A stretch of 64,000 bases of DNA, taken from NCBI GenBank assembly GCA_019634575.1, contig JAHCAY010000003.1, positions 1 through 64,000 of the forward strand, read 5' to 3'. The translations under genes and the position numbers were made by a program. Below the pieces are notes generated by a model. The model ran no database searches. It was not told the DNA's origin and saw only the letters and a list, made by a program, of their open reading frames with translations. Shown here piece after piece: positions 33,352 through 63,598 of the stretch (position 1 is its first letter; each line of letters begins with the position of its first letter). Source of the DNA: Candidatus Didemnitutus sp. (lineage in GTDB: Bacteria > Verrucomicrobiota > Verrucomicrobiia > Opitutales > Opitutaceae).

Positions 33352-33353
33352 CC

Positions 33354-34814: not shown

Positions 34815-34818
34815 GCCG

Positions 34819-35082
34819 ATGAACTACGCGCGCATCGACGGCACCATCGTGGCGGCGGCCTGCCATCCCAGCATGGCCGGCACGCGCGCGGTAATTTGCC
34901 AGCCACTCGATGCCGAAGGCCGCGACGAGGGCGCCCCCGTCCTCGCCGTCGATCCGCTCGGCGCCGGCCTGCATCAGCGCGTGATTCTCTCCACCGACGG
35001 CTCGGCCACGCGCCAGCTCGTCAACGACCCGAAGACGCCGCTGCGTAACCTGATCATCGGCATCGTCGATCCCACTCCGTAA
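34819..35082 (+). CDS. BMC-P pentameric vertex protein 2
   Basis: 87 residues of the EutN/CcmL type: 'MNYARIDGTIVAAACHP', 'RAVICQPLDAEG', 'VLAVDPLGAGLHQRVILSTD' and the terminal 'NLIIGIVD'. The gene starts four bases after the pduP-like stop and is followed after three bases by the third BMC-P. Having three different vertex proteins suggests mixed or position-specific capping of shell corners. Confidence 0.94.
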   Translation: MNYARIDGTIVAAACHPSMAGTRAVICQPLDAEGRDEGAPVLAVDPLGAGLHQRVILSTDGSATRQLVNDPKTPLRNLIIGIVDPTP

Positions 35083-35085
35083 CCC

Positions 35086-35406
35086 ATGCGCCTCGGCACC
35101 GTCATCGGCCGCGTCACGCTCACGCTCAAGGAACCCGTCTACTCGGCGGGCAGTCTTCTGATCGTGCAACCGTTCACGCGCGACCAGTTCGCCGCCGCCG
35201 CGCGCGCGATGCCGAAGGGCACCCCGAAAGTTCCGCTCGCGCCCGGCTCGTCGCTCGTCGTGTTCGACGAGCTCGGCGCAACCATCGGCAGCATCATCGG
35301 CTTCACCGAAGGCGCCGAGGCCTCGCAACCTTTCGAGGGCGACGCCCCCGTCGACGCCTACTGCGCCTGCCTCGTCGACCGCGTCGACTACCAGCCCCCC
35401 CGGTAA
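35086..35406 (+). CDS. BMC-P pentameric vertex protein 3
   Basis: 106 residues: 'MRLGTVIGRVTLTLKEP', 'LLIVQPFTRDQF', 'SSLVVFDELGATIGSIIGFTEG' and the terminal 'VDAYCACLVDRVDY'. It is longer than the other two because of a loop around residues 38-58 ('AARAMPKGTPKVPL'). The family is clearly EutN/CcmL, and the 'EGAEAS.PF' segment and 'CACLVD' end resemble other three-BMC-P loci. Confidence 0.93.
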   Translation: MRLGTVIGRVTLTLKEPVYSAGSLLIVQPFTRDQFAAAARAMPKGTPKVPLAPGSSLVVFDELGATIGSIIGFTEGAEASQPFEGDAPVDAYCACLVDRVDYQPPR

Positions 35407-35445
35407 CCTCCTCCTCCCAGCTCCCAGCTCCCCGCTCCCTCTCCC
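35407..35445 (+). repeat. CT-rich microrepeat spacer (CTCCCAG units) before the aldolase
   Basis: A 39-base spacer composed of cctcctcctcccagctcccagctccccgctccctctccc-type repeats (about 7-9-base period), almost purely pyrimidine plus AG. It has no Shine-Dalgarno sequence. Confidence 0.45.
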
Positions 35446-38894: not shown

Positions 38895-40965
38895 GGCGGT
38901 AGAGCGAAATCCCGCGGACGAAATACAGCCGGCCAGCCGAATCCTCGACAAGGTCGGAGCCGCCCTCGCTCGCGCTGATCACGGTCAACGCGCGGGTCTT
39001 GGGTTCCAATTTGAACAGCACCCGGCCTTGGATCGTGCCGTAGACCCAGCCGTCGCGCGCGGTCAGCAGCGCGGCGTCGTGCACCACGACGCGACTGGCT
39101 TTCGGTTCGTAACGCACCTGCGGAAACAAGTTCGCGTGATGCTCGAAGCGGCGGGTTGCCGGATCGAAAACCACCAGCCACCCCTCGGTCATCATCCAGA
39201 TTTTCCGATCCGGGCCGACCGCCACCGCCGTGATCGCGGTTTGATTGGGAATATCCGCTGGGAGTTCGAAAGTCTCCGCGCCTCCGTCGTCGAGCGAGTA
39301 ACGGAGCAGCTTCGCGCGGGTCTGCGTCGGATGCGCACCGATGCCGCCGGAAATCGATGTGCCGGCGTAAACCACCCCGTCGAGCACCGCGCAGCTGAGA
39401 ACACTGAGGTCCGGGATGCCGAGCTGCGCCGCCGACCGGAAAACGTGTTCGCCGGTGCGCGTGTCCAAGATCGTGAGCGCGCCGCCGAGTTCGCCGTAGC
39501 CGGGCACGGTGCCGATCACGACGCGATGCGCGCCGTCGTGCGTCATCGCGTAAGGCCGGTCCTGATGTCGCGCGGCCAGCTTGAAAAGCATCCGCGGATT
39601 CTCTCCCTCGCGCCACGGCTGACCGAGATCGTAGTCGTAAACAAGCGCCCCCGGGTAGCCGCCGAAGTAGAGATGCCCGCCGAGCTCGGTCATGCCCTCA
39701 GCTTGCGAGACACCGCGCAACGTCGGCAAGACCTCCGCTGGCCGCGCGGGATCGAACACACCGGTGCCGCCCGTGAGATAGCCAGAAACATAGACCTTGT
39801 CGTCCGGCCCAACCACGAGGCTCGACATCGTCTGGGCGGCACCGTCGATCGCGAGCGCCACGCTTCGGGTTTTGCCGGTTTTCAGATTCGTCTTCGCGAG
39901 CCAGATGCGGCCGCCGGAGTTGCAGATTCCGACGGCGGTATTGCCGGGAAACTGATTCTGGTCCGCGAGCGCAAGCCACGCGGTCGCATAGGAATTCGCG
40001 GGCCACGCCTCCCGACCGATTTCGCGCACAGTTCGGGTCGTCACGTTGAAGACACTCGGTCGCGCCTGGTTCGTGAACGCGACGTTGCCGTCCGCGTCGG
40101 CCTCGCTGAACGAGAGGCCGGTGGCAGGGAAGATCGCTGTGGCCTTCGCTCCCACTTCGCCGCTCACATCGAGGGCGACGGCCTGATTCGTCGACAGCAG
40201 CCGGACCAGCAGCGTGTCGCCCACCACGCGCGCCGCATAGGGAAAATCCGCGCCGGCAAATTCCGCCGGCAGCACCTCGCGCGTGCGGCCGGTCGCAAGG
40301 TCGATGCGAGCGACCCGGGCGTTGGGACCGTAGCCCGCGTAGATCACGCCGCGCTTCGCATCGTGCGCGACCGCGCGCACGTAGGTCGGCAGCGCGCCGG
40401 AGACCTTCCGTTCCGCTCCGGCATCGACGCGCTTGAATCCTGCGGCACGCGAGTAGCGAAAGACGTGGGCACCGGGGAAAGTGCCGCCGTAGATCGCACC
40501 ATCCTCGCCGGCGCAGAATCCGTAGAGAAAACTCTGCTCGGGCGCGGTCATTCCGAGATCCTCCAGCTTCTCCGTGCCGGGCTCATAGCGGAAAACGTGT
40601 CCACTGCGGTAGACGCCGGCGTAGACCGCGCCGTCGCTCGCCACCGTCATCGCCCAGCCGCCCTCGCCGCCGGGAATGGTGAGCGTGCGTTCCACGCGCG
40701 CCGTCTCGACATCCACGACCACGAACCGGGCCGGGGCGCTGTCGCCCGCGAGCGCGCCGTCCTGGAGAATATACGCTTTCGCCACGCCCGCCCGGTCGAG
40801 GCCGAACGTGGCGGCGTGCGTCGTCGCACCGAACACGCGGGAGCCCAGATCTTCGATGCGCGGCGCCGCCGCTCCCGAGGCGAGGACGACAGTCGCGAAG
40901 ACCGTCGCGATTCCCCACCCGCTTCGTCCCGGTCCCCTGCGAAGTGTCGGCGCGCGTTGCAGCAT
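38884..40965 (-). CDS. Exported beta-propeller (NHL/YVTN-like) protein
   Basis: 693 residues. The N-terminus has a basic region ('RRGPGRSGWG') and a hydrophobic core ending 'VVLASGAAA', consistent with export. The rest is repeated propeller blades with segments such as 'TVASDGAVYAGVYRSGHVFR', 'GAIYGGTFPGAHVFRYS', 'GVIYAGYGPNARVARIDLAT' and 'DGWVYGTIQGRVLFKLEP'. No catalytic residues are evident; it may bind a glycan or act as an uncharacterised lyase or lactonase-like enzyme. The ATG lies only three bases after the palindromic operator, leaving no room for a normal Shine-Dalgarno. The downstream hydrolase overlaps its stop. Confidence 0.82.
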   Translation of the reverse strand: MLQRAPTLRRGPGRSGWGIATVFATVVLASGAAAPRIEDLGSRVFGATTHAATFGLDRAGVAKAYILQDGALAGDSAPARFVVVDVETARVERTLTIPGGEGGWAMTVASDGAVYAGVYRSGHVFRYEPGTEKLEDLGMTAPEQSFLYGFCAGEDGAIYGGTFPGAHVFRYSRAAGFKRVDAGAERKVSGALPTYVRAVAHDAKRGVIYAGYGPNARVARIDLATGRTREVLPAEFAGADFPYAARVVGDTLLVRLLSTNQAVALDVSGEVGAKATAIFPATGLSFSEADADGNVAFTNQARPSVFNVTTRTVREIGREAWPANSYATAWLALADQNQFPGNTAVGICNSGGRIWLAKTNLKTGKTRSVALAIDGAAQTMSSLVVGPDDKVYVSGYLTGGTGVFDPARPAEVLPTLRGVSQAEGMTELGGHLYFGGYPGALVYDYDLGQPWREGENPRMLFKLAARHQDRPYAMTHDGAHRVVIGTVPGYGELGGALTILDTRTGEHVFRSAAQLGIPDLSVLSCAVLDGVVYAGTSISGGIGAHPTQTRAKLLRYSLDDGGAETFELPADIPNQTAITAVAVGPDRKIWMMTEGWLVVFDPATRRFEHHANLFPQVRYEPKASRVVVHDAALLTARDGWVYGTIQGRVLFKLEPKTRALTVISASEGGSDLVEDSAGRLYFVRGISLYRHVP

Positions 40966-40968
40966 CTT

Positions 40969-40984
40969 GTAACCATTCGGTTAT
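40969..40984. promoter_or_regulatory. Palindromic operator A (GTAACC-ATTC-GGTTAT)
   Basis: A near-perfect 16-bp inverted repeat. It ends three bases before the ATG of the exported propeller gene (minus strand, ATG at 40965). One of eight copies of RTAACY-N4-GGTTAC in the window. Confidence 0.7.
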
Positions 40985-41026
40985 CTTGCGCCGCACAGGT
41001 CAAGCGCCGACTCCCGGTGCCGGAAC

Positions 41027-41066
41027 AAAAAAAACGGGCGGGCACCGTGAGCCGGCGCTCGCCCGT
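41027..41066 (-). terminator. Rho-independent terminator of the orphan secreted-protein gene
   Basis: On the minus strand, acgggcg and cgcccgt (41060-41066 and 41034-41040) form a 7-bp stem, extended after one mismatch by gcgcc/ggtgc. It is followed by eight consecutive T residues (41027-41034 as A on plus). It lies 16 bases past the stop at 41082. A textbook intrinsic terminator. Confidence 0.85.
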
Positions 41067-41081
41067 TCGTTTCGTCAAGCA

Positions 41082-42101
41082 TCAGGGCTGCACCCAGTAT
41101 GCCGTCGCCACGACGGCATTACCGGTCGCTTTGGCGTGCAAACTTGCCTCGACGCCGACAAAGCCGCGGAAAACGCCGCTGTCATCCAGCACCTGCAGCA
41201 TGGCCCAGGTGTGGCCGCCGCCGACGCTGATGCAGGTCGTGCTCGACCCCTGCGAGTCGCTGCAGGCCACGGAGCCGAGCTGGTGCTGCCAGTAGGTTTT
41301 CCGGAAATCGCTCGCCGGGTTGCCGGCGAAATACGAGCGCCAGTAGGCGTTGTCGCAGACCGGCACGCCGGGAGGCGCCGGCAGGGTCATCGAATTCGAC
41401 GTGCCGCAGATGTTGTAGGTCGTCAGGTCGAGCCAGCCGTTGAGATTCTGCGAATCAGGCACGCCATAGGAATTCTGCCAATAAACGTAGTTGGTCAGTG
41501 TGCCGCCCGACTTCATCTGGGCGATCGTCGCGCCGGAGGAGAATCCCGTGTTCGAGCCGAAGCCCCAGGCGTGCTGCACGTCGTAGTTCGAGTTGAAGAT
41601 CGTGAACATCGAGTAGTAGCTCTTCGGCGAACTGATGGTCCACGTCTCGTATTGGCCGCCGGTCCAGGTGATCACGCAGCGGCCATTCACGTCGATGATG
41701 TAGGTGCCAGAGAGGGTGCTCCACGCCTGACCGGGCTGGTAGCCCTTTGGCGTCTTGATGGTGCAATTCCATGTGCAGCCGTTGGTGGTATAGCCGGTGA
41801 GCACCTTGTTGGTGTTCGAGTCGCCGGTGAACGTGGACTGATTCCAATACTTGAACTGCTCCGTCACCGTGCCGGTCGAGCCGGAGCCGGCGGTGAAGGT
41901 GTATTGGGCGATGCGGACGAACTTCGCGCTCACGGCGCCACCCATGGCGGTGACGACGTAGTAGGCGCGGCCGCCCGGCAGACCGACAGCCGAGGCCGCA
42001 ACGGCGGCGCCGAGGCTCAGCAGCGAGAGGAACGCGGCCTTGAACGGGAGAAAACTGAGCCGACGGGGCGCCGGCGCAGCGGTATGGAGCGTATCTTTCA
42101 T
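41082..42101 (-). CDS. Secreted protein of unknown function, serine/threonine/tryptophan-rich
   Basis: 339 residues from ATG 42101 (MKDTLHTAAPAPRR). A signal peptide follows ('AAFLSLLSLGAAVAASA'). The mature part is rich in Ser, Thr, Asn, Tyr, Trp and Gly and holds seven cysteines ('NGCTWNCTI', 'GRCVITW', 'NICGTS', 'PVCDN', 'VACSD', 'TTCISV'). Segments include 'SVGGGHTWAMLQVLDDSGVF' near the end. No known domain was recognised. The composition differs strongly from the Ala/Arg-rich neighbours, and the gene has its own strong terminator, so it looks like a separately expressed and perhaps acquired extracellular protein. Confidence 0.8.
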   Translation of the reverse strand: MKDTLHTAAPAPRRLSFLPFKAAFLSLLSLGAAVAASAVGLPGGRAYYVVTAMGGAVSAKFVRIAQYTFTAGSGSTGTVTEQFKYWNQSTFTGDSNTNKVLTGYTTNGCTWNCTIKTPKGYQPGQAWSTLSGTYIIDVNGRCVITWTGGQYETWTISSPKSYYSMFTIFNSNYDVQHAWGFGSNTGFSSGATIAQMKSGGTLTNYVYWQNSYGVPDSQNLNGWLDLTTYNICGTSNSMTLPAPPGVPVCDNAYWRSYFAGNPASDFRKTYWQHQLGSVACSDSQGSSTTCISVGGGHTWAMLQVLDDSGVFRGFVGVEASLHAKATGNAVVATAYWVQP

Positions 42102-42171
42102 GTGGATTTCAGGGGCTGGTGGGAAAAGACGACGGGCGGCCACCAGCGCGGACCGCTCGCCGAGGGGAAAA

Positions 42172-42954
42172 TCATCTTTCCGGCGGGAGCGGAGGCCCCG
42201 CGAAGGTGCGGACGAGATACGCCACGAGGGATTCGACCTGTTCCTCGTCGAGCGGGCCGCCCTCGCTCTTCGCGAATGCCGGCATCAGCGTGCCGGGCCG
42301 GCCGCGCGTCACGATCTCGCGCCAATACGCCGCGTCCCGCGGCTGCTTCGCCAGTGCCAATTCCGGCACGATCGAGGCGCGGTGCGGCGACTCGTGGCAC
42401 GGCCCGCACGCCGCCGCATAGAGGAACGCGTCCCTCTGGCCGAGCGCCGGCGCGGCATGGCAGCGCGCGCAGTCGCCCTGGAACACCGCCTGCCGGTTCT
42501 GCTGCGCGATGAGGAAATTCGCCTTCCGCTGCGGGTCCGAGTCGATCGCCCGCGCCGGAATGGAAATCGTGAGCGCAAGCGTCTGCGTGCCGAGATCCGA
42601 GGCCACCTGCACGGACTTCGTGAGTCGTCCCTCTTTCGCCGTAAAGTCGACCTTCAGCTTCAACATCGAGGTGGCGCCGGGGGCCAGCACCCAAGGATCG
42701 GCGGGCAGCTGCGGAATCGTGCAACCGCACGACGGCTGCACGGCCTCGATCACATGCGAACGCGAGTCGCGATTAGTAACCGCGAACGCCACTTCCCAGA
42801 AATTCTCGTCCGCGCGCGCATCGTGGTGCTTCTCCATCGCATCCCACACCAGCAATTCGCCGATCGCACGCGGCGATTGGGTCTCGTTGCCGGCGAGCCG
42901 GGCCAGCGTGGCGAACGTCAGCAGGACACTCAGAAAAAAAGCCGCGGATCTCAT
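42172..42954 (-). CDS. Exported DUF1573 - cytochrome c fusion protein
   Basis: 260 residues from ATG 42954 (MRSAAFFLSVLLTFATLARL), which encodes a signal peptide; the frame extends upstream through the preceding gene and was trimmed. The N-terminal half (about 30-150) is a DUF1573-type Ig-like fold with the signature 'VQPSCGCTIPQ' and 'LAPGATSMLKLKVDF'. The C-terminal half is cytochrome c-like with two CxxCH haem motifs, 'CARCH' and 'CGPCH', a possible methionine ligand in 'PGTLMPAFAKSEGG', and the closing helix 'EEQVESLVAYLVRTF'. It probably carries electrons or acts in a periplasmic oxidation. It begins seven bases after the stop of the repeat-protein gene, forming an operon with it and the AraC gene. 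Confidence 0.87.
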   Translation of the reverse strand: MRSAAFFLSVLLTFATLARLAGNETQSPRAIGELLVWDAMEKHHDARADENFWEVAFAVTNRDSRSHVIEAVQPSCGCTIPQLPADPWVLAPGATSMLKLKVDFTAKEGRLTKSVQVASDLGTQTLALTISIPARAIDSDPQRKANFLIAQQNRQAVFQGDCARCHAAPALGQRDAFLYAAACGPCHESPHRASIVPELALAKQPRDAAYWREIVTRGRPGTLMPAFAKSEGGPLDEEQVESLVAYLVRTFAGPPLPPER

Positions 42955-42961
42955 GGCGCAC

Positions 42962-44281
42962 TCAGCCGCGGTTCGGTTGGGCAAACCGGTAGGCCGCCAC
43001 CGCCTCGTCTCGCACGCTGCCGGCCGGCAGCGTTTGCAGCCACTGCCACGCGCGCACCGGATCCGTCGACGCCCAGACCGGCATGATGTCCCGCACTGCC
43101 CGGCGACGGGTCGCCTCGCCGGCCACGCCACTCAGCCACGTCGTGGCGGCCGCGGGGTCGCTATTCGCCCAAGCGACCGCCACGGAAATCAGCGCCCGCT
43201 CCCGGCCCTCGTCGGCGGGGAGTTGCAGGGCCAGCTGCGCCGCTTCGACCGGCGCGTCGAGGGCGCGTTGCGCCACTGCGGCGTTGACGAACTCGGCGCG
43301 CTCGGCGCTCGACAACGACTCCGCCCACCGGCTCGCCGCCGCGAAATCCACCGCCCCCCATTGGCGTGCAAGCTGTTCGAGCGCGGAGTTCGAGGGGGAA
43401 AATTCCCGCCAATGCGCCGCCGCTCCAGCCGGGTCCTGCTCGATCCACCCCGGCAACATGCTCGCCTCGACGGCTCGACGCAGATCGCCCGGCGGCAACT
43501 GCGATGCCCACGCCCGCGCCGCCGCGAGGTCCTCCACCACCCAGCGAGCCGAGAGCGAAGCGGCCGCCTGTTGCGCGAGCGGTCCGTCGCCCAGCCGGAC
43601 GATGCAGGCCGCGGCCAGCTCGGGCTCGCTTTGCACCATGCCCTGCAACGCGACAGACAGCAGCGCCTCCTGGCGCGGATCGTTCGTCTGCGCGCGAATC
43701 CAATCGATCGTCGCCGCCGGATCGTGCGTCGCCCACTCGCCGACAATCGCCTCAATCGTCGTCACCCGCGGCAAGCCGTTGAGCCGGGTGGACGCATCCG
43801 CGACCGCCGCACCGCCATCGCGACGCGCCCAGGCGCGGTAGGCGATCTCCGCGATGCGCCGTCCGGTCTCGCCGCCCACTTCGGAACGGGCCAGCTGGAG
43901 CGCCGCCGGGGCGTCGGCCTCAGCGAGCGCACCCAGCGCGATCGTCCACAGATCGTTGCGCATCACGCCCGGCGGCTGGGCGCGCACCCACGCCAGGGCC
44001 GCGTCGCGATCGCGTTCAAGCCATGAGACAAGTCCCGTGCTCACGCGACGACGCGCCGCTCCGCCCGGCGAGGTGGACGCCCATGCGGCCCAGTCACCGG
44101 GACCTTCGCTCTGCCTCGCCTCCATGGCGACCGGCGACCCGGAAGACGCCATCCCGCTCGCGACGGCGACCGTCGGTGCCAATCGGGGCGCCGGCACTTT
44201 CCATTGTCCGACGATCTCGCGACCCGCAGCGCCGAGCACGAAGCCCAGCAGCACCAGACCCGCCGCGTCCGACCGTTTCAT
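42962..44281 (-). CDS. Membrane-anchored W-DP helical-repeat protein
   Basis: 439 residues from ATG 44281 (MKRSDAAGLVLLGFVLGAAG). The N-terminus is a single hydrophobic anchor or signal. The remainder is about eight degenerate helical repeats of 33-50 residues around the pattern W-x3-D-(P)-x-A-A-x-x-W: 'WATHDPAATIDWIRAQ', 'WIEQDPAGAAAHWRE', 'WANSDPAAATTWLSG' and 'WASTDPVRAWQWLQTL'. Such TPR-like solenoid repeats recur in verrucomicrobial proteins of unknown function and suggest protein-protein binding at the periplasmic face. The gene lies seven bases after the AraC stop and before the DUF1573-cytochrome gene. Function unknown. Confidence 0.78.
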   Translation of the reverse strand: MKRSDAAGLVLLGFVLGAAGREIVGQWKVPAPRLAPTVAVASGMASSGSPVAMEARQSEGPGDWAAWASTSPGGAARRRVSTGLVSWLERDRDAALAWVRAQPPGVMRNDLWTIALGALAEADAPAALQLARSEVGGETGRRIAEIAYRAWARRDGGAAVADASTRLNGLPRVTTIEAIVGEWATHDPAATIDWIRAQTNDPRQEALLSVALQGMVQSEPELAAACIVRLGDGPLAQQAAASLSARWVVEDLAAARAWASQLPPGDLRRAVEASMLPGWIEQDPAGAAAHWREFSPSNSALEQLARQWGAVDFAAASRWAESLSSAERAEFVNAAVAQRALDAPVEAAQLALQLPADEGRERALISVAVAWANSDPAAATTWLSGVAGEATRRRAVRDIMPVWASTDPVRAWQWLQTLPAGSVRDEAVAAYRFAQPNRG

Positions 44282-44288
44282 TCGTCCA

Positions 44289-45230
44289 CTATGCCGAAAA
44301 TGCGGGCCCCGTTGGAATAGCGGGACTCCGGTTTGTTTTAGCATTTCCGCCAACGGTGTCCGCCCCGCCGCCGGAGGACTGCGCCCGCCTGGCCTTCGCA
44401 AACGCCAGCGGCGAGAGACCGTAGGCCTGGCGAAACGCGCGACTGAAAACATAGACCGACGAGAAACCCGTCAGCTCTGCAACCTCCGTCACGCGCAGCC
44501 GGCCCGCTTCGATCAATCCGCGCGCCCGCTCGAGGCGCATCCTGCGCAAGTGGCGGCCCAGCGGCACGCCGCTCGAGAGATGAAACTGTGCGCGAACATG
44601 GCTTACGCTCACTCCGAGCGATTGCGCGATTTCCTTCACTTTTGCGCCTGCACCGCAGGCCCCGGCGATGCGATCGACCAGTCGCACCAGATCGCCCCGC
44701 TCCGCCGGAAGCGGGGTCGCCCGAGGGGCCTGCCGCAAATCCTGCAGCAAGGCCGCGAGTCGGAGCACGGTCAGATTCGCTCCATCCGGCTCCAGGAACG
44801 CCTGGACCAGCGCCGCCGCCGACCTCTCCGCCGGCGGCAAAAAGGCGACGCGCACATCTTGCAGCCCCGCCAGGCTCGACGCATCGACCATCTCGAACGT
44901 GACGAACAGCCAGCGCAACGCCGCGTCGCGGTCGTCCGGGTAGTGATGGAACTGGAATGGGAACACCAACAGCGCCTCCCCCGGGCCCAGCAGGTGCGTC
45001 GTGCCGTCGACCGACACCTGCGCGTCACCCTCGATGGCGAGGATGAGCGTGAACCGATGGTGGAGAAACTGCCCGCGGTGCGCGCCTTGGAGTTCGGTCC
45101 GCCGCGCCCGCTGGAAGCAAATCACGTTGTTCGGCAGAGCGCCCACATCCCCGCGCCGGCCCTCGAGCAGCGGGACCTGCGGGGACACGAGGCGACCCAG
45201 CAAATCTCCAAGGTGATGTCGCGCGGACAT
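44289..45230 (-). CDS. AraC-family transcriptional regulator
   Basis: 313 residues. The N-terminal cupin-like sensor domain (about 20-150) has 'HHRFTLILAIEGDAQVSVDG', 'LLGPGEALLVFPFQFHHYP' and 'RWLFVTFEM'. The C-terminal AraC double helix-turn-helix contains 'KVKEIAQSLGVSVSHVRAQF' and 'VTEVAELTGFSSVYVFSRAF', then 'RQAYGLSPLAFAKARRA'. Such proteins usually activate sugar-use genes in response to a sugar. It is divergent from the BadF-type kinase gene, with operator copies B and C between them. It heads a three-gene minus-strand operon and is a candidate regulator of the surrounding cluster. Confidence 0.92.
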   Translation of the reverse strand: MSARHHLGDLLGRLVSPQVPLLEGRRGDVGALPNNVICFQRARRTELQGAHRGQFLHHRFTLILAIEGDAQVSVDGTTHLLGPGEALLVFPFQFHHYPDDRDAALRWLFVTFEMVDASSLAGLQDVRVAFLPPAERSAAALVQAFLEPDGANLTVLRLAALLQDLRQAPRATPLPAERGDLVRLVDRIAGACGAGAKVKEIAQSLGVSVSHVRAQFHLSSGVPLGRHLRRMRLERARGLIEAGRLRVTEVAELTGFSSVYVFSRAFRQAYGLSPLAFAKARRAQSSGGGADTVGGNAKTNRSPAIPTGPAFSA

Positions 45231-45275
45231 GGGTGGTGGCGTGGAAAATACGGGCCGCCGGGCGGCGGGCCTGTG

Positions 45276-45291
45276 ATAACTGCTTGGTTAC
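45276..45291. promoter_or_regulatory. Palindromic operator B (ATAACT-GCTT-GGTTAC)
   Basis: A 16-bp inverted repeat in the divergent araC/kinase region, 45 bases upstream of the AraC ATG. It is preceded by gtg so that TGATAAC, a -10-like element, overlaps its left arm. Confidence 0.65.
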
Positions 45292-45424
45292 TTTATTTCG
45301 ATTGCGCCCGCTGGCTAGGAAAAAATTCCGTAAACCCCGCGCCCGGGCCGTCTGCCCGCCGCGCGCGCCGGCTTTGCCGCGTTTTCGATTGGACACCCAC
45401 CGCGCCGCCAGGAACATTGCCCGC

Positions 45425-46423
45425 GTGGTTACCAATCGGTTACTTCTTGGCATCGATGGCGGCGGCACGCACACCCGCGCGCTCCTCGCCGCGCCGGACG
45501 GCACCATCCTCGGCCGCGGCCGCGCCCCCGGCTGCAACTACCACAACGTCGGGCTCGACGCGGCGCTCCGGCACATGGCCGCGGCGGCGGCCGGGGCCTG
45601 CGCCGCCGCCCGCTGTCCGGTGGAGGACATCCACACCGCCTTTATCGGCACGGCCGGCGTGAAAGCCGCCGAGGACATTGCGGCGCTCCACGACGGCAAC
45701 CGCCGCGCGGGAGCGCTGCCGGCGCCACAGGTGGTTTTTGCCAACGATTCCGAGAATGCGCACGCCGCCGGCTTGGGCGGCCGGCCGGGTGTCGCGCTCA
45801 TCGCCGGCACCGGCTCCATCGCCCTCGGGCGGGACGAACACGGACGGTCCTTCCTCTGCGGCGGCTGGGGCTGGCTGGTCGACGACGGAGCCAGCGGATG
45901 CTGGCTGGGACTGCAGGCCCTGCATGCCGTCGCGCGGGCGGTGGACGGGCGCGGGCCCGCCACCCATCTCCGTGAGCCCCTGCTCGCCGCCCTCGGCCTG
46001 AAGGATCCGCAGACGATTCTGCGCCGCATCTACACCGTCGACCTGGGCGCATCCGACTTCGCGCTGCTCGCTCCGCTGGTATTCGCCGCGGCGCGGCAGT
46101 GCGACGCCGTCGCCCTGGAAATCCTGCGCCGCGGCGCCGAGCGCGCGGCCGAGCTGGCCGCCGGTGCGCAACGCGGCGCCGCCCTGCCATGCGATTGCGA
46201 AGTCGTCCTGCTCGGCGGCGTCGCCCAGTCCGGCGCGCCCTATCAACCGATGATCGAAGCCGCGATCCGGCGGCACCTGCCAGCGGCGCGCCTCGTGGCG
46301 CCCGTTCTCCCCGCTGAATTCGGCGCGCTCGTCCGCGCCCGCGAGATCGCCGGTGCGAAACCGGACGCAGCCTTCATGGCCCAACTGCAGGCCTCCAGCG
46401 CCACCGCTTCCTCCCATGCATGA
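45425..46423 (+). CDS. BadF/BadG/BcrA/BcrD-type sugar kinase (N-acetylglucosamine kinase-like)
   Basis: 332 residues from GTG 45425 (start codon then VTNRLLLGIDGGG); the frame continues 64 codons upstream through the AraC control region, which is unlikely to be translated. ASKHA ATPase motifs: phosphate-1 'LLLGIDGGGTHTRALLAAPD', 'GTAGVKAAED', 'FANDSENAHAAGLGG' (catalytic Asp region), 'VALIAGTGSIALGRDEHG', 'GWGWLVDDGASGCWLGLQAL' and a late 'VVLLGGVAQSGAPY' adenosine motif. This is the architecture of GlcNAc kinases, so it may phosphorylate an amino sugar or related hexose in the cytoplasm. The start codon abuts operator C, which overlaps the first codons. The next gene overlaps its stop (ATGCATGA). 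Confidence 0.86.
   Translation: MVTNRLLLGIDGGGTHTRALLAAPDGTILGRGRAPGCNYHNVGLDAALRHMAAAAAGACAAARCPVEDIHTAFIGTAGVKAAEDIAALHDGNRRAGALPAPQVVFANDSENAHAAGLGGRPGVALIAGTGSIALGRDEHGRSFLCGGWGWLVDDGASGCWLGLQALHAVARAVDGRGPATHLREPLLAALGLKDPQTILRRIYTVDLGASDFALLAPLVFAAARQCDAVALEILRRGAERAAELAAGAQRGAALPCDCEVVLLGGVAQSGAPYQPMIEAAIRRHLPAARLVAPVLPAEFGALVRAREIAGAKPDAAFMAQLQASSATASSHA
45428..45443. promoter_or_regulatory. Palindromic operator C (GTTACC-AATC-GGTTAC), overlapping the kinase start
   Basis: The right half matches the consensus exactly and the left half has one mismatch. It lies immediately after the putative GTG start of the kinase gene. This makes either a leaderless or translation-overlapping control, or a different start, likely. 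Confidence 0.55.
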
Positions 46424-47003
46424 CATCGCCTCCCTTTTGGGCTGCTACGACTCCGCGACCGGCCGCATCGCCGGGCGGCCTCTCGTCGAGCGCCGCCTCT
46501 CCGATCTGCGCGGCTCGTTTGCCGACACCGCCGCTTACGAAACGGCCCTCCGCGCCGGGAATCCCCTGCTCTACTCCGTGAGTTCCGTCGAGCCCGGCCG
46601 CGGGCCCGGAGACCTGCACTACGGTCTCGGCCTGCTTCAGCCCGGCCGGATCGGCGACGAATACTTTCTCACCAAAGGCCATCTGCACTCCTGGCGTCCC
46701 GCTGCCGAAGTCTATGTCGGACTCCGCGGCACGGGCGCCATGCTGCTCGAAGACGAGCACAGCGGCGAAGCGCAGCTGATCGAGCTCGGCGCCGGCCAGA
46801 TCGTCTACGTGCCCGGCAACACGGCGCACCGCACGGTCAACACGGGAACGGAACCGCTCGTCTATCTCGGCATCTATCCCGCCGCCGCCGGCCACGACTA
46901 CCAGAGCATCGCGGCGAAGAATTTCGCGCACGTCGTCGTCACACGCGCCGGTCGGCCCACGCTCGTGCGCCGCTCCGAATATCGCCCCGCAGCCAACCCC
47001 TGA
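46416..47003 (+). CDS. Cupin-type glucose-6-phosphate isomerase
   Basis: 195 residues from ATG 46416 (MHDIASLLGCYDSATG), overlapping the kinase stop by eight bases. This is the archaeal/Thermococcus-type phosphoglucose isomerase cupin. Metal-binding motif 1 is 'EYFLTKGHLHSWRPAAEVYV' (two His and a Glu), and motif 2 is 'QIVYVPGNTAHRTVNTG', containing the last His. It interconverts glucose-6-phosphate and fructose-6-phosphate. Its place after a sugar kinase suggests it handles the phosphorylated product, perhaps after deamination, or a related aldose phosphate. Confidence 0.88.
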   Translation: MHDIASLLGCYDSATGRIAGRPLVERRLSDLRGSFADTAAYETALRAGNPLLYSVSSVEPGRGPGDLHYGLGLLQPGRIGDEYFLTKGHLHSWRPAAEVYVGLRGTGAMLLEDEHSGEAQLIELGAGQIVYVPGNTAHRTVNTGTEPLVYLGIYPAAAGHDYQSIAAKNFAHVVVTRAGRPTLVRRSEYRPAANP

Positions 47004-47009
47004 TCCCCG

Positions 47010-47402
47010 ATGAGCTACGTCACCAAACCCATTCCCGCCGAAAAGCCGGCCGTCGACCTCGTCACGCGCCCGTGGGGATCCTTCAAGCAGTTCGCGCACA
47101 ACCGCGAGACGACCGTCTCGTTGATGTCCGTGCTCCCGGGCCAGCGGCTCAGTCTCCAATCGCACACGGGCCGCGCCGAACTCTGGATCGTGCTCGACGA
47201 CGGCGCCACCGTGACCGTCGGCGAAGCCACCCGCATGTGCCGCGCGGGCGACGAGATTTGGATTCCGGCCAACGAAAAGCACCGCCTCGGCAATCCCACC
47301 GCAACGCCCGTCCGCGTCCTCGAGGTGGCGTTCGGCAACTGGCAGCAGGCCGACATCACGCGCTACGACGACGACTTCGCGCGTCCCAACAAGGGAGACT
47401 GA
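47010..47402 (+). CDS. Cupin mannose-6-phosphate isomerase (type II, AlgA C-terminal-like)
   Basis: 130 residues of the cupin domain found at the C-terminus of bifunctional mannose-6-phosphate isomerase/GDP-mannose pyrophosphorylases. It shows 'RPWGSFKQFAHNRETTVSLM', 'SLQSHTGRAELWIVLDDGA', 'CRAGDEIWIPANEKHRLGN' and 'RVLEVAFGNWQ'. It lies six bases after the cupin GPI gene and before a third isomerase gene. Expected to isomerise mannose-6-phosphate and fructose-6-phosphate, with zinc bound by the cupin histidines. Confidence 0.88.
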   Translation: MSYVTKPIPAEKPAVDLVTRPWGSFKQFAHNRETTVSLMSVLPGQRLSLQSHTGRAELWIVLDDGATVTVGEATRMCRAGDEIWIPANEKHRLGNPTATPVRVLEVAFGNWQQADITRYDDDFARPNKGD

Positions 47403-47404
47403 CG

Positions 47405-49156
47405 ATGCCGCCCCGTCCCGCGAACTACGACAAATTCCCCTTCATCCCCGTCCCCGCCGCTCACGCTGCCGACTGCTGGGTCGGATGGAGCGAGATCGGC
47501 ACGCGCCTCGGTGCGGCGATCACCGGGCACGGCGCCCTCGTGGTCGACTGCTACCCGGGCGTCCATCTCGATGACGTCCGCCACGCACTGGCGGCGGCCC
47601 TGCGCCCCGCGGTGGTGATCGACACACGCGAGGCGTTCAAGCCCGCCGCGACGATCGACAAGCTCGTCGCCCCGGACCTCGGCGGCGCGGATCCGATCTT
47701 CGGCCGGCTCACACGCCTGCGCTTCGACGATTTCCTCGATCCGCATCGCGTCGCCGAGTTGCGCGCGAAGATCACCCTTGCACGCGGACTGGCGCTCGTC
47801 GTCGGCCCGGCGGCGGCACTCGTCTGTCCGGAGCCCGCCGTTCTCGTCTATGCCGACCTGCCGCGCTGGGAAGGCCAGCTCCGCCAGCGGCGCAACGAGG
47901 TGCCGAACCTCGGCGCGGCCAACCACGCCCTCGCCGGTTCGCTGAAATACAAGCGCGCGTTCTTCGTCGATTGGCGCGTCGCCGATCACGAGAAACGCCG
48001 CACGATGCCGCGCTGGGATTTTCTGCTCGATACCGTCGACCGCGCCGCACCGAAGCTCATCACCGGTGCCGCGCACCTCGCCGCGCTCGAGGCGGCGGCG
48101 CGCCGACCGTTCCGCGTGGTGCCGTTCTTCGACCCGGGTCCCTGGGGCGGCCAATGGATGAAGGAAGTCTGCGACCTCGACCGCTCCGCGAAGAACTTCG
48201 CGTGGTGCTTCGACTGCGTGCCGGAGGAAAACAGCCTGCTGCTCGCCTTCGCGCGGGCGCGCGTCGAGATCCCGGCGATCAACCTCGTGTTTCGCCACCC
48301 CGAACAGCTGCTCGGTCCGGCGGTGCACGCCCGCTTCGGCGCCGAGTTTCCGATCCGCTTCGACTTCCTCGACACCATGGGCGGCGGCAACCTCTCGCTG
48401 CAGGTCCACCCGCCGACCGAGCAGGCGCGCACGGAGTTCGGTCTCCCCTACACGCAAGACGAGAGCTACTACATCCTCGACGCCGAGCCCGGTGCGCGCG
48501 TCTACCTCGGACGCGCCAACGGTGCGGACCAAGCGGAGATGTTCGACGCGCTCGCGGCCGCGCAGCAATCCGGCCAGTTCGAGGCCGAGAAATTCGCCGC
48601 CAGCTTTCCTGCGAGGACGCACGACCACTTTCTCATTCCCGCCGGCACGCTGCACTGCTCCGGGGCCGGCAGCATGGTGTTGGAGATCAGCGCCACGCCC
48701 TACATCTTCACCTTCAAGCTCTGGGATTGGGGTCGGCTCGGTCTCGACGGCAAACCGCGCCCGATCAACCTCGAGCGCGGCCGCCGCGCGATCCGTTGGG
48801 AACGCGACGCCGACTACGCCCGGCAGCACCTCGTCAACCAAGTGACGCCGGTCGAGTCCGGCGTCGGCTGGCGGGAGGAGCGCACCGGACTGCATCCGGC
48901 CGAGTTCATCGAAACGCGCCGCCACTGGTTCAGTGGCAGCGTGCCTCACGACACCGGCGGCGGCGTGAACGTGCTCAATCTCGTGCAAGGCGCGGAAGCG
49001 ATCGTCGAGAGTCCGAACGGCGCGTTCGTGCCGTTCGTCGTGCACTACGCCGAGACGTTCATCGTGCCGGCGGGCGTCGGCGCCTACACGATTCGCCCGC
49101 ACGGCCGCGGCCTCGGGCAGGAGTGTGCGACGCTCAAGGCGTTCGTGCGGACGTGA
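47405..49156 (+). CDS. Large class I mannose-6-phosphate isomerase with N-terminal kinase-like domain
   Basis: 583 residues from ATG 47405, with GGGAG upstream; it begins two bases after the preceding stop. Residues 1-215 resemble a uridine-kinase-like P-loop domain ('FDDFLDPHRV', 'VYADLPRWEGQLRQRRNEV') but lack a Walker A motif at the expected place ('HGALVVDCYPGV'), so the domain is probably inactive. Residues 235-583 are the class I phosphomannose isomerase: 'TMGGGNLSLQVHP' supplies the Gln/His zinc ligands, 'DESYYIL' a Glu, and 'FLIPAGTLHCSGAGSMVLEI' the late His. Together with the two cupin enzymes this makes three successive hexose-phosphate isomerases. The natural substrate may be an unusual sugar phosphate. 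Confidence 0.85.
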   Translation: MPPRPANYDKFPFIPVPAAHAADCWVGWSEIGTRLGAAITGHGALVVDCYPGVHLDDVRHALAAALRPAVVIDTREAFKPAATIDKLVAPDLGGADPIFGRLTRLRFDDFLDPHRVAELRAKITLARGLALVVGPAAALVCPEPAVLVYADLPRWEGQLRQRRNEVPNLGAANHALAGSLKYKRAFFVDWRVADHEKRRTMPRWDFLLDTVDRAAPKLITGAAHLAALEAAARRPFRVVPFFDPGPWGGQWMKEVCDLDRSAKNFAWCFDCVPEENSLLLAFARARVEIPAINLVFRHPEQLLGPAVHARFGAEFPIRFDFLDTMGGGNLSLQVHPPTEQARTEFGLPYTQDESYYILDAEPGARVYLGRANGADQAEMFDALAAAQQSGQFEAEKFAASFPARTHDHFLIPAGTLHCSGAGSMVLEISATPYIFTFKLWDWGRLGLDGKPRPINLERGRRAIRWERDADYARQHLVNQVTPVESGVGWREERTGLHPAEFIETRRHWFSGSVPHDTGGGVNVLNLVQGAEAIVESPNGAFVPFVVHYAETFIVPAGVGAYTIRPHGRGLGQECATLKAFVRT

Positions 49157-49187
49157 GGCGAGCAACCCTGCCGGCTGGAAGCTGGCG

Positions 49188-50423
49188 CTACTTTGCGAGG
49201 CGCCGGGCTACGTAAGTCACGGCACGAGCCACCTTGGCGACGTAGCCCTCGGTCATCGCTTCGTTGATGTAGAGTAGAATGCCGTCGCGGATGATCGCCT
49301 CGGCGACGGGACAATGAACCTCGCGATAATCCATCGAGGTCAGACCGGCGTCGCGCACCGGCCAGGCGCCACCGAAGAAATTGTGCGTCTGGAACACGCG
49401 GTAACCGTAGACCGGTTTCGGGAGATAGCCGGGATTGAGATTCACGCCTTCGGCGCGAAGCGCTTCGGCGAAGGCCGTCGCACCGCCCGCGAAACGCTCC
49501 TCCTCGAGGCGGAAGAAATAAAACCAGTAACTGTGCGTGTCGCCCGCGCGCTTCAGCGGGGGCAACAATCCCGGCACGCCGACGAGCGCCTCGTCGAGCT
49601 GGGCCGCGATGGCGATGCGGCGCGCGACGATGCCGTCGAGCTTCGGCAGTTGGGCCGCGGCGATCGCCGCCTGCGGCTCGGTGATGCGATAGTTGGGAGC
49701 GAGGTCGGCGGGATCGCGCAGGAGAGCGACGTCGCGCTCGCCCGCCACGCGGTCGTAGGACTTGTCGCCCCACTTCTGCAGGCTGACGCCGTAGGCATCG
49801 GAATTGGTGCCCACCATGCCGCCATCGCCGCAGCTGAGATGCTTGAAGTCGTTGAACGAGTAGCAGCCGAAGTCGCCGATGAGTCCGACCGGCGTGCCTT
49901 GATATCTCGCGCCCCACGCCTGCGCGCAGTCCTCGATCAGCGCGAGCCGATGCTCGGTCGCGATCGCCCTGAGCGCCGCGAGGTCGCACGGATTGCCGGC
50001 GAGGTGAACCGCGAGGATCGCGCGCGTCTTTGCCGTGATGGCGCGACGCACCGCGGCCGGATCGAGATTGTAGGTGCGCGGCTCGAGGTCGGCGAAAACC
50101 GGCACGGCCTGCTGATAGAGGATGCCGATGACCGAACCCATGTCGGTGATCGGCGGCACGATGACTTCCTCGCCCGGTTTCAGGCGCAGCGCGGCGAGCG
50201 CGATGTGGATCGACGCCGTGCCGGACGAACAGGGAAAACAATGCCGAAGCGGATAGGCGCGCCGGAATTCCTCGAGCAACGCGGTCGTCTGCGGGCCCCG
50301 CCAATAGAACAGCGAGGGTTGATCGAGCATCGCGGTCAGGCGCGCGAGCTCGGGCGCACCCCAGCGGCGCGGGCGCGGGAACGGTTCGTCGACGATCGGG
50401 GCGGACTTCGGGTTCGCGTTCAC
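49188..50423 (-). CDS. DegT/DnrJ/EryC1-family PLP-dependent sugar aminotransferase
   Basis: 411 residues. Fold-type I aminotransferase of the DegT class: 'FPCSSGTASIHIALAALRLK', 'EVIVPPITDMGS', 'VHLAGNPCDLAALRAIA', 'LIEDCAQAWGARYQG' (Asp binding the pyridine N), and the PLP lysine in 'CYSFNDFKHLSCGDGGMV'. It ends with 'NFFGGAWPV' and 'HCPVAEAIIRDGILLYI'. DegT enzymes transfer an amino group to a keto-sugar, or in reverse remove one. It is the last gene of a four-gene operon with two amidohydrolases and a ceramidase-like amidase, and overlaps the gene before it by four bases. A catabolic deaminating direction is possible given the context. Confidence 0.9.
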   Translation of the reverse strand: MNANPKSAPIVDEPFPRPRRWGAPELARLTAMLDQPSLFYWRGPQTTALLEEFRRAYPLRHCFPCSSGTASIHIALAALRLKPGEEVIVPPITDMGSVIGILYQQAVPVFADLEPRTYNLDPAAVRRAITAKTRAILAVHLAGNPCDLAALRAIATEHRLALIEDCAQAWGARYQGTPVGLIGDFGCYSFNDFKHLSCGDGGMVGTNSDAYGVSLQKWGDKSYDRVAGERDVALLRDPADLAPNYRITEPQAAIAAAQLPKLDGIVARRIAIAAQLDEALVGVPGLLPPLKRAGDTHSYWFYFFRLEEERFAGGATAFAEALRAEGVNLNPGYLPKPVYGYRVFQTHNFFGGAWPVRDAGLTSMDYREVHCPVAEAIIRDGILLYINEAMTEGYVAKVARAVTYVARRLAK

Positions 50424-51172
50424 AAGGAGAAAAACTCGCGCGCATTCGCCACGCCGATGCGCGCACGCTCAGCTGCGGTGAAATAATCGGTGGTGAGCTT
50501 CGCGCGCTGCGCTTCCGGCGAGAGCATGGGAGCGAGCGTGCCGAACATCACGCGGCGCGCCGGCAGAAGCTGGCGCAGGCGCGGTGCGAGTTCGTTGTGC
50601 TCCACGTAGGCGAGATCGATGGAGAAATTATCCACCTTGGCCGCGAGCAGCGTCGTTTCTCCCAAGGAAAGCCCCGTGCACAGCACGTGATGCTTCGGGA
50701 AGCGTTGCAGAAACTCCGTGAGCTCGGCGACCGGCACGCCGCGAATGTTCAATGCGAAGTAGCGCTGACGCTCGTCCTCCAACCGCACCGTGAGCACGAG
50801 CCGCAGTTTCGCGGCGGCGAGGGCGTCCATGAACCCTGCCATCCGCGCGTTTCGCAGGCGGTAGTTGTGGTAGTTGGGGAGAATGCGCACGGCGCGCGCC
50901 TCGGCAGCGCGGCAGGCTTCCAGTTGCTCGCGCCAGTTGGCCAGCGCGGGGTTGACGATCGGCAACGGCGCGAAGGCGCGAATGTGGCGCACGGCGTCGA
51001 ACAGATACGCGTTGGCCGTCATCGGCTCGGGTGCGAGCACGGCGTCGAGCGGCGACACGACCGCGCGCTTGATGCCGCTGCGTGCGAGATGCGCGGCCAG
51101 TTCGCCGGGCAGACGGCGGGGCGCCGCACTGAACGGCCAGTGTCCGAGGTAGGCGTTGACGTCGATGAGCAT
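50420..51172 (-). CDS. Amidohydrolase-2-like TIM-barrel protein
   Basis: 250 residues beginning 'MLIDVNAYLGHWPFSAAPRR'. The sequence follows the amidohydrolase-2/metal-dependent hydrolase pattern, but the first HxH motif is altered ('VNAYLGHW'). Later motifs are 'AVRILPNYHNYRL', 'LRLVLTVRLEDER', 'VLCTGLSLGET' and 'RVMFGTLAPMLSPEAQRAKL', the last with the usual position of the C-terminal catalytic acid. Metal binding may be partial, or the protein may be a lyase or lactonase rather than an amidase. It starts three bases after the paralogous gene and overlaps the aminotransferase start (ATGA). Confidence 0.75.
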   Translation of the reverse strand: MLIDVNAYLGHWPFSAAPRRLPGELAAHLARSGIKRAVVSPLDAVLAPEPMTANAYLFDAVRHIRAFAPLPIVNPALANWREQLEACRAAEARAVRILPNYHNYRLRNARMAGFMDALAAAKLRLVLTVRLEDERQRYFALNIRGVPVAELTEFLQRFPKHHVLCTGLSLGETTLLAAKVDNFSIDLAYVEHNELAPRLRQLLPARRVMFGTLAPMLSPEAQRAKLTTDYFTAAERARIGVANAREFFSL

Positions 51173-51175
51173 GAC

Positions 51176-51946
51176 TCAGGCGAGCTGGAGCAGACGCGCG
51201 GCGTTGTCGTGGAGAATCATCCGCTTCTCGCGGGCGGACAGCTGCGTGCCGCGCACGCGATGGATCGCCACGCCGGTCGAGCGACCGGGCAAATCGGAGC
51301 CGTAGATCACGCGGTCCGCGCCGAGGTGCTCCACCGCGAACTCGATCAGGCCGTCGTCCGGCAGGCCGCCGGAGGTGTCGACCCAGAGATTCGGCAGGCC
51401 CTTCGCCTCGAGGACGCCGCGCACGCCGCAACCAGTGAGGTGCGCCATGATGATCGGCACATCCGGGTGGCGCCGGGCGAGCACGGCGGTGTCGGCCGGA
51501 TCCGTGTGATAGCTGCGTTGGCGGATGATGGTCTGGCTCCACGAGTGCTGGAGCACGACGAGCTGGAAGCGGCGCGCGGCCTCCATCACGGGGCCCATGC
51601 AGGCATCGCGGGCGTTGTTGCAGATCTCGAGCTTGATGCCGATGAAGCCGAACTCGCTCACGCAGCGTTCGACTTCCGCCATGACGGCGCGCTCGCCGTG
51701 CAACGGATTGACGAAGCAGAAGAACTTGAAGAAGTCCGGCGCGAGCCGCTGCACGCGTGCGCTCTCGTCGTTGATGACGCGAATCTGTTCGAGCGTCGGG
51801 CTGCGGCCGTGCAGTAGCACATCCCCGAGGCCGACCATTTTCACGATGCCTTGCCGCCTGGCATGGGCGAGGAGCCAGCGCACCTCGGCGGGTTTCGCGC
51901 CTTCGCGAAACATGATGGGGTGCGTGTGGGCGTCGATGATGCGCAT
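51176..51946 (-). CDS. Amidohydrolase-2 family hydrolase
   Basis: 256 residues from ATG 51946 (MRIIDAHTHPIMFREG), five bases after the stop of the ceramidase-like gene; longer upstream frames run through that gene and are ignored. Catalytic metal motif 1 is 'IDAHTHP' (HxH). Later landmarks are 'FFKFFCFVNPLHG', 'FIGIKLEICNNARD', 'LVVLQHSWSQ' (His), 'IIMAHLTGCGVRG' (His) and 'RVIYGSDLPGRST' (Asp). This fits a zinc-dependent hydrolase or decarboxylase of the ACMSD/amidohydrolase-2 group. The partner gene downstream is a diverged relative. Substrate unknown; amide or lactone cleavage of a sugar derivative is inferred from context. Confidence 0.85.
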   Translation of the reverse strand: MRIIDAHTHPIMFREGAKPAEVRWLLAHARRQGIVKMVGLGDVLLHGRSPTLEQIRVINDESARVQRLAPDFFKFFCFVNPLHGERAVMAEVERCVSEFGFIGIKLEICNNARDACMGPVMEAARRFQLVVLQHSWSQTIIRQRSYHTDPADTAVLARRHPDVPIIMAHLTGCGVRGVLEAKGLPNLWVDTSGGLPDDGLIEFAVEHLGADRVIYGSDLPGRSTGVAIHRVRGTQLSAREKRMILHDNAARLLQLA

Positions 51947-51951
51947 GACGG

Positions 51952-53253
51952 TCAGGTCGCGGCGGTCGCGGACAAAGCCGGCGCCGGGAGTCGTGCGATC
52001 GCGGCCGCGGCCTCGTCGGCCAGCTGCTCGAGCGCCCCGATGCGGAACCGGTAGCCGCCGTAGAAAATGTGCGCCATGTCGACTTCGTAGCCGCCCTCGG
52101 CGTAGGCGGGACGCGTGCAGAGATAGCCCATGTCGCCGTTGGCGTAACCGAGCGTGTAGACTTTGGCGAGGCCGGTGTCGCGACGCAGCCAATCCGTGAA
52201 AATCGAAAACACTTCCGCGTTCACGCCCACGAACACGCAATCGCCGATCTGCACGAGGTGCAGCTCGGCCTCGCGCCGTTGCGCGGCGCGCCCCTCGGCG
52301 AGTTCACGACGCAAATCGTCGCCCCAACCGTGCACGCAGTCGCGGACGCGGCGGCCGAAGCCTTCGTCGGGCACGGTGGCGAGCGTCGACGCCACCGCGG
52401 CATCGAGCGCGGTGCGGTCGAGATAATCGAGCGGCAACGGGACGATGCGACGCGCCAGACGGAGCGTAGGCGGCGCCGGGCGCGCACGCTGCAATGCCGG
52501 AGCGAGCAGCGCGGCGAACTGGTTGCCCCACTCCTGCACGCGCGACCACGGGACGTTTTCGCCGGGCGGGTTGAGGTTGCCGCAAGCTCCATTCGCGAAA
52601 AGCACGACCGGCTGCCCCGGCAACTGGCGCGAGAGCGCGAGCGCCACCGCGCCAGGCAGGTCGGCGCTGACCGCGCGATTCGAGTGGCCGAGCGCCACGG
52701 GATGGATGGCGTAGTTCACGACGACCGCGGCGAAGGTGCCGTCGCGGCGCTTGAAGCCGAGGGCGGCGACGCGCGGGTCCACATGCGCGGTGGCCGGTCC
52801 GCGCCGGTGCACCGCGAGCGAGAGCATCTCCTCGACGCTGACGAGCGTGCATTCCTCGTTTCGCATCCGCGCCATTTCGGCCGCGGAGCGCAATTTCTCG
52901 TCGAGCTGCTCGAGGTAATGCCCGTCGGGCGCACCGGCGGCGCGCAGCGGGACCGTGGCCGGACCGGAGTGCGTATGCGTGGCGGTGAGCAGCACCTGGC
53001 CGGGTTCGAGGCCGAATTTGTCCCCGGCCCACCGGCGAAAGCGCGCGACGAGCGCTTCGTCCACCGCGAGCAGATCGCAGTGCAGCCACAAAAGTTCCGC
53101 GCCTGCCGACTGCACCCGCAGCGCGCGCACGAAGAGCGGGTCGAGCACGCCCGCGGACGGCTGCTGCCGGAGCGCGAAGCCGGAGAGCTCGACGTTGTGC
53201 TCGGGCGTAATCTCAACCTGGGCGATTCCGATCCTGAAATGTTCCGCGGACAT
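51952..53253 (-). CDS. Neutral ceramidase-superfamily hydrolase, cytoplasmic
   Basis: 433 residues from ATG 53253 (MSAEHFRIGIAQVEITPEHN). Neutral/alkaline ceramidase-like motifs are 'GIAQVEITPEHNVELSGFA', 'LTATHTHSGPATVPL' (metal-binding His pair), 'YAIHPVALGHSNRAVSADLP' and 'VVLFANGACGNLNPPGENVP' (catalytic Ser/Asn region), ending with 'TLGYANGDMGYLCTRPAYAE'. No signal peptide is visible and the length is well below classical ceramidases (about 650 or more), so it probably cleaves a small N-acyl substrate in the cytoplasm, for example an N-acetyl amino sugar. Operator D ends three bases before the ATG. It heads a tightly packed four-gene operon. Confidence 0.83.
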   Translation of the reverse strand: MSAEHFRIGIAQVEITPEHNVELSGFALRQQPSAGVLDPLFVRALRVQSAGAELLWLHCDLLAVDEALVARFRRWAGDKFGLEPGQVLLTATHTHSGPATVPLRAAGAPDGHYLEQLDEKLRSAAEMARMRNEECTLVSVEEMLSLAVHRRGPATAHVDPRVAALGFKRRDGTFAAVVVNYAIHPVALGHSNRAVSADLPGAVALALSRQLPGQPVVLFANGACGNLNPPGENVPWSRVQEWGNQFAALLAPALQRARPAPPTLRLARRIVPLPLDYLDRTALDAAVASTLATVPDEGFGRRVRDCVHGWGDDLRRELAEGRAAQRREAELHLVQIGDCVFVGVNAEVFSIFTDWLRRDTGLAKVYTLGYANGDMGYLCTRPAYAEGGYEVDMAHIFYGGYRFRIGALEQLADEAAAAIARLPAPALSATAAT

Positions 53254-53256
53254 TAA

Positions 53257-53272
53257 GTAACTAATTGGTCCA
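53257..53272. promoter_or_regulatory. Palindromic operator D (GTAACT-AATT-GGTCCA)
   Basis: An imperfect copy of RTAACY-N4-GGTTAC in the 52-base gap between the MFS transporter and the ceramidase-like gene. It ends exactly three bases before the ATG at 53253, the same spacing as operator A. On the minus strand GATAAT (53272-53277), a -10-like element, abuts its distal edge. Confidence 0.6.
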
Positions 53273-53305
53273 TTATCACGCCCGGTCAATTCGATTCCGG
53301 CCAGC

Positions 53306-57991: not shown

Positions 57992-58007
57992 TTAACTAAC
58001 TGGTTAC
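57992..58007. promoter_or_regulatory. Palindromic operator E (TTAACT-AACT-GGTTAC)
   Basis: The right half matches the consensus exactly and the left half has one mismatch plus the allowed C/T change. It lies 161 bases before the TonB-receptor ATG and 105 before the oxidoreductase ATG. Confidence 0.6.
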
Positions 58008-58049: not shown

Positions 58050-58065
58050 GTAACTACTCCGTTAC
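58050..58065. promoter_or_regulatory. Palindromic operator F (GTAACT-ACTC-CGTTAC)
   Basis: A 16-bp inverted repeat with one mismatch in the right half. It lies 47 bases before the preferred ATG of the oxidoreductase gene. Confidence 0.6.
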
Positions 58066-63494: not shown

Positions 63495-63510
63495 ATAACC
63501 ATTTGGTTAC
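63495..63510. promoter_or_regulatory. Palindromic operator G (ATAACC-ATTT-GGTTAC)
   Basis: An almost perfect palindrome in the divergent region between acs (minus) and the second DegT gene (plus), 58 bases before the preferred acs ATG. Confidence 0.7.
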
Positions 63511-63582
63511 TTCAGGCGCAACCACCTCCACGACATGCGCCTCGGAATCCGCGCCCGCAATTTGCTTGTCCGCGCTTTTTTA

Positions 63583-63598
63583 GTAACCATATGGTTCA
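63583..63598. promoter_or_regulatory. Palindromic operator H (GTAACC-ATAT-GGTTCA)
   Basis: The left half and spacer match exactly; the right half has two mismatches. It ends nine bases before the ATG of the DegT-type gene at 63608. Confidence 0.65.

Follow-up and report, generated by a model that had tools for sequence, protein, structure and literature searches.

A 64,000-nt stretch of contig JAHCAY010000003.1 from Candidatus Didemnitutus sp. (Opitutaceae), analysed at its full length and called the window in the following, covers part of a gene cluster in which a 16-bp palindrome, GTAACC-N4-GGTTAC (symmetrised consensus, AAGTAACC-N4-GGTTACTT), is repeatedly found close to start codons. The predicted gene products suggest a system for the utilisation of glycans and amino sugars; they comprise a BadF-type sugar kinase, a GPI-type isomerase, DegT aminotransferases, GH20, alpha-galactosidases, several Gfo/Idh/MocA oxidoreductases, and a heparinase-like lyase, along with MFS transporters, a TonB-dependent receptor, amidohydrolases, and a ceramidase-like protein. 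The palindromes are treated here as candidate operators; those in the window (A, C, D, and five further sites at 45276, 57992, 58050, 63495, and 63583) and the genes next to the first four of them are the following:

38884..40965, minus strand: exported propeller-like protein; an in-frame TAA inside operator A bounds its start
40969..40984, minus strand: operator A, 3 nt upstream of the propeller-gene ATG; 26.9 bits (leave-one-out, 25.5) with the weight matrix described below
44289-45230, minus strand: AraC-family gene, adjoining operator B
45276..45291, no strand assigned: operator B, 45 nt upstream of the AraC-family gene and 133 nt upstream of the kinase GTG
45425..46423, plus strand: BadF-type sugar kinase (N-acetylglucosamine kinase-like), with GTG as the best available start
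45428..45443, plus strand: operator C, within codons 2-7 of the kinase gene
51952..53253, minus strand: neutral/alkaline ceramidase-like protein; Pfam domain from residue 6 of this ATG
53257..53272, minus strand: operator D, ending 3 nt upstream of the ceramidase-like gene's ATG
57992..58007, no strand assigned: operator E, between the TonB-dependent receptor gene (161 nt) and a Gfo/Idh/MocA oxidoreductase gene
58050..58065, no strand assigned: operator F, 47 nt upstream of the oxidoreductase ATG at 58113
63495..63510, no strand assigned: operator G, overlapping the start of the longest open reading frame (ORF) of an acyl-CoA synthetase-like gene, whose likely start is 58 nt beyond
63583..63598, plus strand: operator H, 9 nt upstream of the ATG of a DegT-type aminotransferase gene

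Palindromic matches are clearly over-represented in the window (20 observed, 3.6 expected). A weight matrix built from ten of the 12 sites in the cluster, which had leave-one-out scores of 19.1-26.0 bits, recovered 12 sites that scored 18 bits or more in an examined stretch of 120 kb. All of them fall within 45 kb (C3:40.9-86.0 kb, in the numbering of the window continued past its end), and four are located beyond the window (C3 71112, 75237, 78121, and 85971). Across a background of 1.42 Mb, made up of sampled stretches of this genome whose genes were called by a simple composition-based script, not a single site reached 14 bits.

The distances between operators and start codons are often short. 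The preliminary description of the sequence had placed the palindromes at the propeller and ceramidase-like genes exactly three bases before the ATG (40965-40963 and 53253-53251), and these coordinates were confirmed. The three-base spacing marks the lower end of a range and is not a rule, since gaps of 0-15 nt occur alongside gaps of 45-161 nt; the individual values in this genome are 3, 3, 7, 7, 8, 9, and 15 nt at one set of sites and 45, 47, 58, 83, and 161 nt at the others. Gaps of up to 15 nt were found in 7 of 13 cases from a target list compiled by hand, for which a uniform placement over 0-165 nt would give p ~8e-5. The GTG of the kinase gene (45425-45427) does abut operator C, as had been noted, but the operator is not upstream of the gene; it forms part of the coding sequence (GTG GTT ACC AAT CGG TTA). 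At C3:71112 (L026:8112-8127), a single operator occupies the 38-bp intergenic region of a divergent gene pair, 7 nt from one candidate start and 15 nt from the other. A metagenome-assembled genome of Akkermansiaceae (L138:9993-10008) has an operator 4 nt from the start of a gene for a TetR-family regulator and 2 nt from that of a divergent ORF, with an intergenic region of 22 bp if both starts are right.

A gene encoding a TetR-family protein is present in the same cluster, about 11 kb past the window (C3:75.3-76.0 kb; 75294-75950). Its product combines an N-terminal helix-turn-helix domain (PF00440; E 2e-16; 59.9 bits with a cut-off of 24) with a C-terminal ligand-binding domain (PF17938, TetR_C_29; E 8.5e-29), whereas all NCBIfam equivalog models scored far under their cut-offs (best, RefZ; 64 vs 180). 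The gene appears to form an operon with a preceding epimerase gene, whose ATG has an operator 7 nt upstream. In a survey that used six orthologs as query and covered 80 named loci, sites scoring 20 bits or more were present no further than 300 nt from the TetR gene in 21 of 51 loci with an ortholog but only in 2 of 29 loci with a more distant TetR-family gene, and these two (L161 and L162) may belong to the same group as divergent representatives. The linkage extends to other Verrucomicrobiota (Spartobacteria, Chthoniobacter), Planctomycetota, and a Firmicute (Desulfofundulus). Because the palindrome keeps company with the TetR gene across these loci, the TetR protein is its likely reader; in the DNA-binding domain, the stretch NKRMVYHY is invariant across the six aligned orthologs.

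Most genes with an operator close to their start codon share a further element, a TTG resembling a -35 box, for which the candidates in the window are:

40998..41003, minus strand: TTGACC, 38 nt before the propeller-gene ATG at 40965
45389..45394, plus strand: TTGGAC, 36 nt before the kinase GTG at 45425
53284..53289, minus strand: TTGACC, 36 nt upstream of the ceramidase-like gene's ATG at 53253
63566..63571, plus strand: TTGTCC, 42 nt before the ATG of the DegT gene

A TTG is located 34-44 nt ahead of the start codon at 29 of 34 near-start sites, a set that includes orthologous and hence non-independent sites; the element is found at 7 of 8 such sites in this genome and at 13 of 17 outside the epimerase orthologs. 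The distance of the TTG nearest to this position varies less with respect to the start codon (standard deviation, 3.5) than with respect to the operator (5.3), which fits a promoter that is tied to the start and over which the operator slides, even if selecting the TTG by how far it lies from the start biases the comparison in this direction.

The window for the TTG came to light in the regulon before it was tested on 220 unambiguous, operon-leading ATG starts of operator-free genes. Among these, a TTG is present at -45..-34 (a window of 12 nt) in 26% of the cases, compared to 13% in control windows, and in 58% of them it is followed by a T at exactly +27. The combination TTG-N24-T occurs at the position expected for a short leader in 36 of the 220 genes but only in 2-9 in upstream windows of equal size, and among the strict TTG...TAnnnT pairs, the end of the -10 element is located 6-15 nt before the ATG in 9 of 15. 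Shine-Dalgarno (SD) motifs are at background throughout the genome (6.4% vs 6.4%); a 16S rRNA gene, the source of the anti-SD sequence, was not found in the assembly, whose stated completeness is 99.9%. In this statistical sense, which applies to all statements on promoters made here, a class of SD-poor promoters with short leaders exists genome-wide.

These results bear on two arguments that had been advanced for very short or leaderless transcripts. The first, the lack of an SD motif at the propeller, kinase, and ceramidase-like genes, is true but uninformative, since such motifs are at background in the entire genome. The second relied on GATAAY elements abutting the distal edges of operators A and D as -10 boxes. 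At A, the element (GATAAC, 40985-40980) has five of six bases in common with an operator half-site, whereas at D, the element (GATAAT) overlaps the operator by one base; GATAAY occurs at only 4 of the 34 near-start sites (counted from the site listing), and its spacing to the TTG is abnormal at both A and D. Although GATAAY was rejected as the -10 element, the idea of a promoter hidden under the operator gains indirect support from the placement of the TTG.

We consider it probable, on the strength of these sequence patterns, that a TetR repressor occludes promoters whose transcripts begin about 0-10 nt before the start codon. The palindromes would be the dimer operators of the TetR-family protein encoded at C3:75.3-76.0 kb, which probably controls its own operon via the site ahead of the epimerase gene. 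The TTG located 34-44 nt before the start would serve as the -35 element, and the -10 region and the transcription start would lie under or beside the operator, so that the operators would sit against the start codons because transcription begins just upstream of the latter; at site C, the operator would be situated just past the transcript start, in the first codons. The bound repressor would block RNA polymerase, and its release by a ligand would allow translation from a leaderless mRNA or one with a very short leader, without the involvement of an SD motif.

Several observations weigh against this interpretation. No convincing -10 hexamer could be placed inside the operators of near-start sites, and the T at +27 that is conserved genome-wide does not occupy the same place in the promoters of the regulon. 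The TTG-N24-T signal is weaker in relatives (17 of 155 vs 4-8). At B, E, F, G, and K, the distance to the start codon is 45-161 nt; it is 65-118 nt in some TetR orthologs, and the site of the epimerase gene is 67-118 nt from the start in other relatives (G015, G016, G018, and G019). Finally, among 57 genomes, no conserved operator was found next to close orthologs of the ceramidase-like, propeller, and kinase genes, so that A, C, and D could not themselves be footprinted by comparison; the epimerase, DegT, and heparinase-like targets took their place.

Among the alternatives, the one that survives best assumes that the TetR operators are real but that the promoters are located further upstream, so that the operator would be part of a normal leader that lacks an SD motif, and the repressor would form a roadblock near the start codon. 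Ordinary leaders of this kind must exist if SD motifs are at background genome-wide, and both the operators at 45-161 nt and the lack of a clearly visible -10 inside the operators speak for this scenario. We nevertheless regard it as unlikely, given the concentration of TTG 34-44 nt before both near-start and operator-free starts, accompanied by a T at fixed spacing, and the very short intergenic space at some divergent pairs, such as the 38 bp at C3:71112.

The preliminary description had named mis-assigned start codons as the alternative, in which case the three-base spacing would be accidental. The starts of the longest ORFs are indeed misleading at F, G, and K, and the kinase gene has a GTG start without a close ATG. 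At A, H, I, and the epimerase gene, however, a mis-assignment is unlikely because in-frame stops exclude starts further upstream: at A, a TAA in the operator closes the reading frame, and no further start is available until 132 nt past the operator; at H, the in-frame stop is also within the operator; and at I, a TAA is located between operator and ATG. Later starts would forfeit a signal peptide (an apparent one in the propeller protein) or a conserved N-terminus. The GTG at 45425 is the best available kinase start because homologs begin 1-3 residues ahead of the conserved motif LLLGIDGGG. A spacing of 2-7 nt between operator and epimerase start is found again in 17 genomes, in ten of which the TAA of the operator is in frame. 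Despite the misleading ORFs at F, G, and K, mis-assigned starts do not explain the spacing pattern, as judged from the reading frames, and an accidental spacing is highly improbable.

That the palindrome is instead read by another regulator, such as the AraC-family protein encoded next to site B, or acts as an mRNA hairpin with a 6-bp stem and a 4-nt loop merits equally little credence, because it tracks the TetR gene across phyla, its stem pairs are broken without compensation at D, E, F, I, J, 71112, and 75237, and neither the strand of the sites nor their distance from genes is constant.

Repression of promoters that end at the start codon has been described before. The TetR-family repressor AcuR of Rhodobacter sphaeroides controls the leaderless acuR-acuI-dddL operon, whose transcript starts exactly at the AUG and lacks an SD motif, and its inverted-repeat operator overlaps the promoter (PMC3017554). 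By analogy, AcuR is a direct precedent for the arrangement proposed here, which likewise combines a TetR-family protein, an inverted-repeat operator that would cover the promoter, and the absence of an SD motif. By contrast, the TetR protein of the cluster is not AcuR (NCBIfam NF051457; 31.2 bits with a cut-off of 247), the operators differ (TAATAGAC-N6-GTCTATTA in AcuR vs GTAACC-N4-GGTTAC), and AcuR has been described for a single self-regulated operon, whereas about 12 sites are present in one cluster here. RutR-type and other characterised TetR repressors share a recognisably similar DNA-binding half and a short palindromic operator with the present system. Verrucomicrobia have already been recorded as SD-scarce (PMC10783764), which agrees with the lack of an SD excess in this genome, but the survey describes no operators. 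Verrucomicrobiota are not mentioned in the available part of a major survey of leaderless genes (PMC3160421), and a literature search on leaderless genes in Opitutus yielded nothing relevant.

With a candidate repressor gene, a well-delimited operator, and roughly a dozen targets, a set of loose palindromes becomes a testable regulon. The results also suggest that a phylum known for its scarce use of SD motifs commonly initiates translation on leaderless or near-leaderless mRNAs; if this is confirmed, both gene-start prediction and promoter search in Verrucomicrobiota would need adjusting, and the regulon would be a good model for repression in cases where about 40 bp accommodate promoter, operator, and start codon together. 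It is conceivable, although we lean slightly against so broad a view, that a large share of the operon-leading genes in Opitutaceae and the wider Verrucomicrobiota possess promoters that end at the start codon, which would be why repressors of entire catabolic regulons bind at the first codons or even within them, and that one operator may serve both members of divergent gene pairs only 20-40 bp apart.

A similar palindrome with a different spacing (TGTAACCTAWTAGGTTACA) is present in two copies 54 bp apart at another locus (L109:17700-17774; G000 C2:517700 and 517754), where it is probably the operator of another regulator. Elsewhere in the window, an acetate kinase, an aldehyde dehydrogenase, and a row of several ORFs of ~90-105 aa (31401-36534) possibly represent a bacterial microcompartment locus, and the region 9106-21804 contains an ORF of 4232 aa, with an open frame of 2635 aa on the opposite strand.
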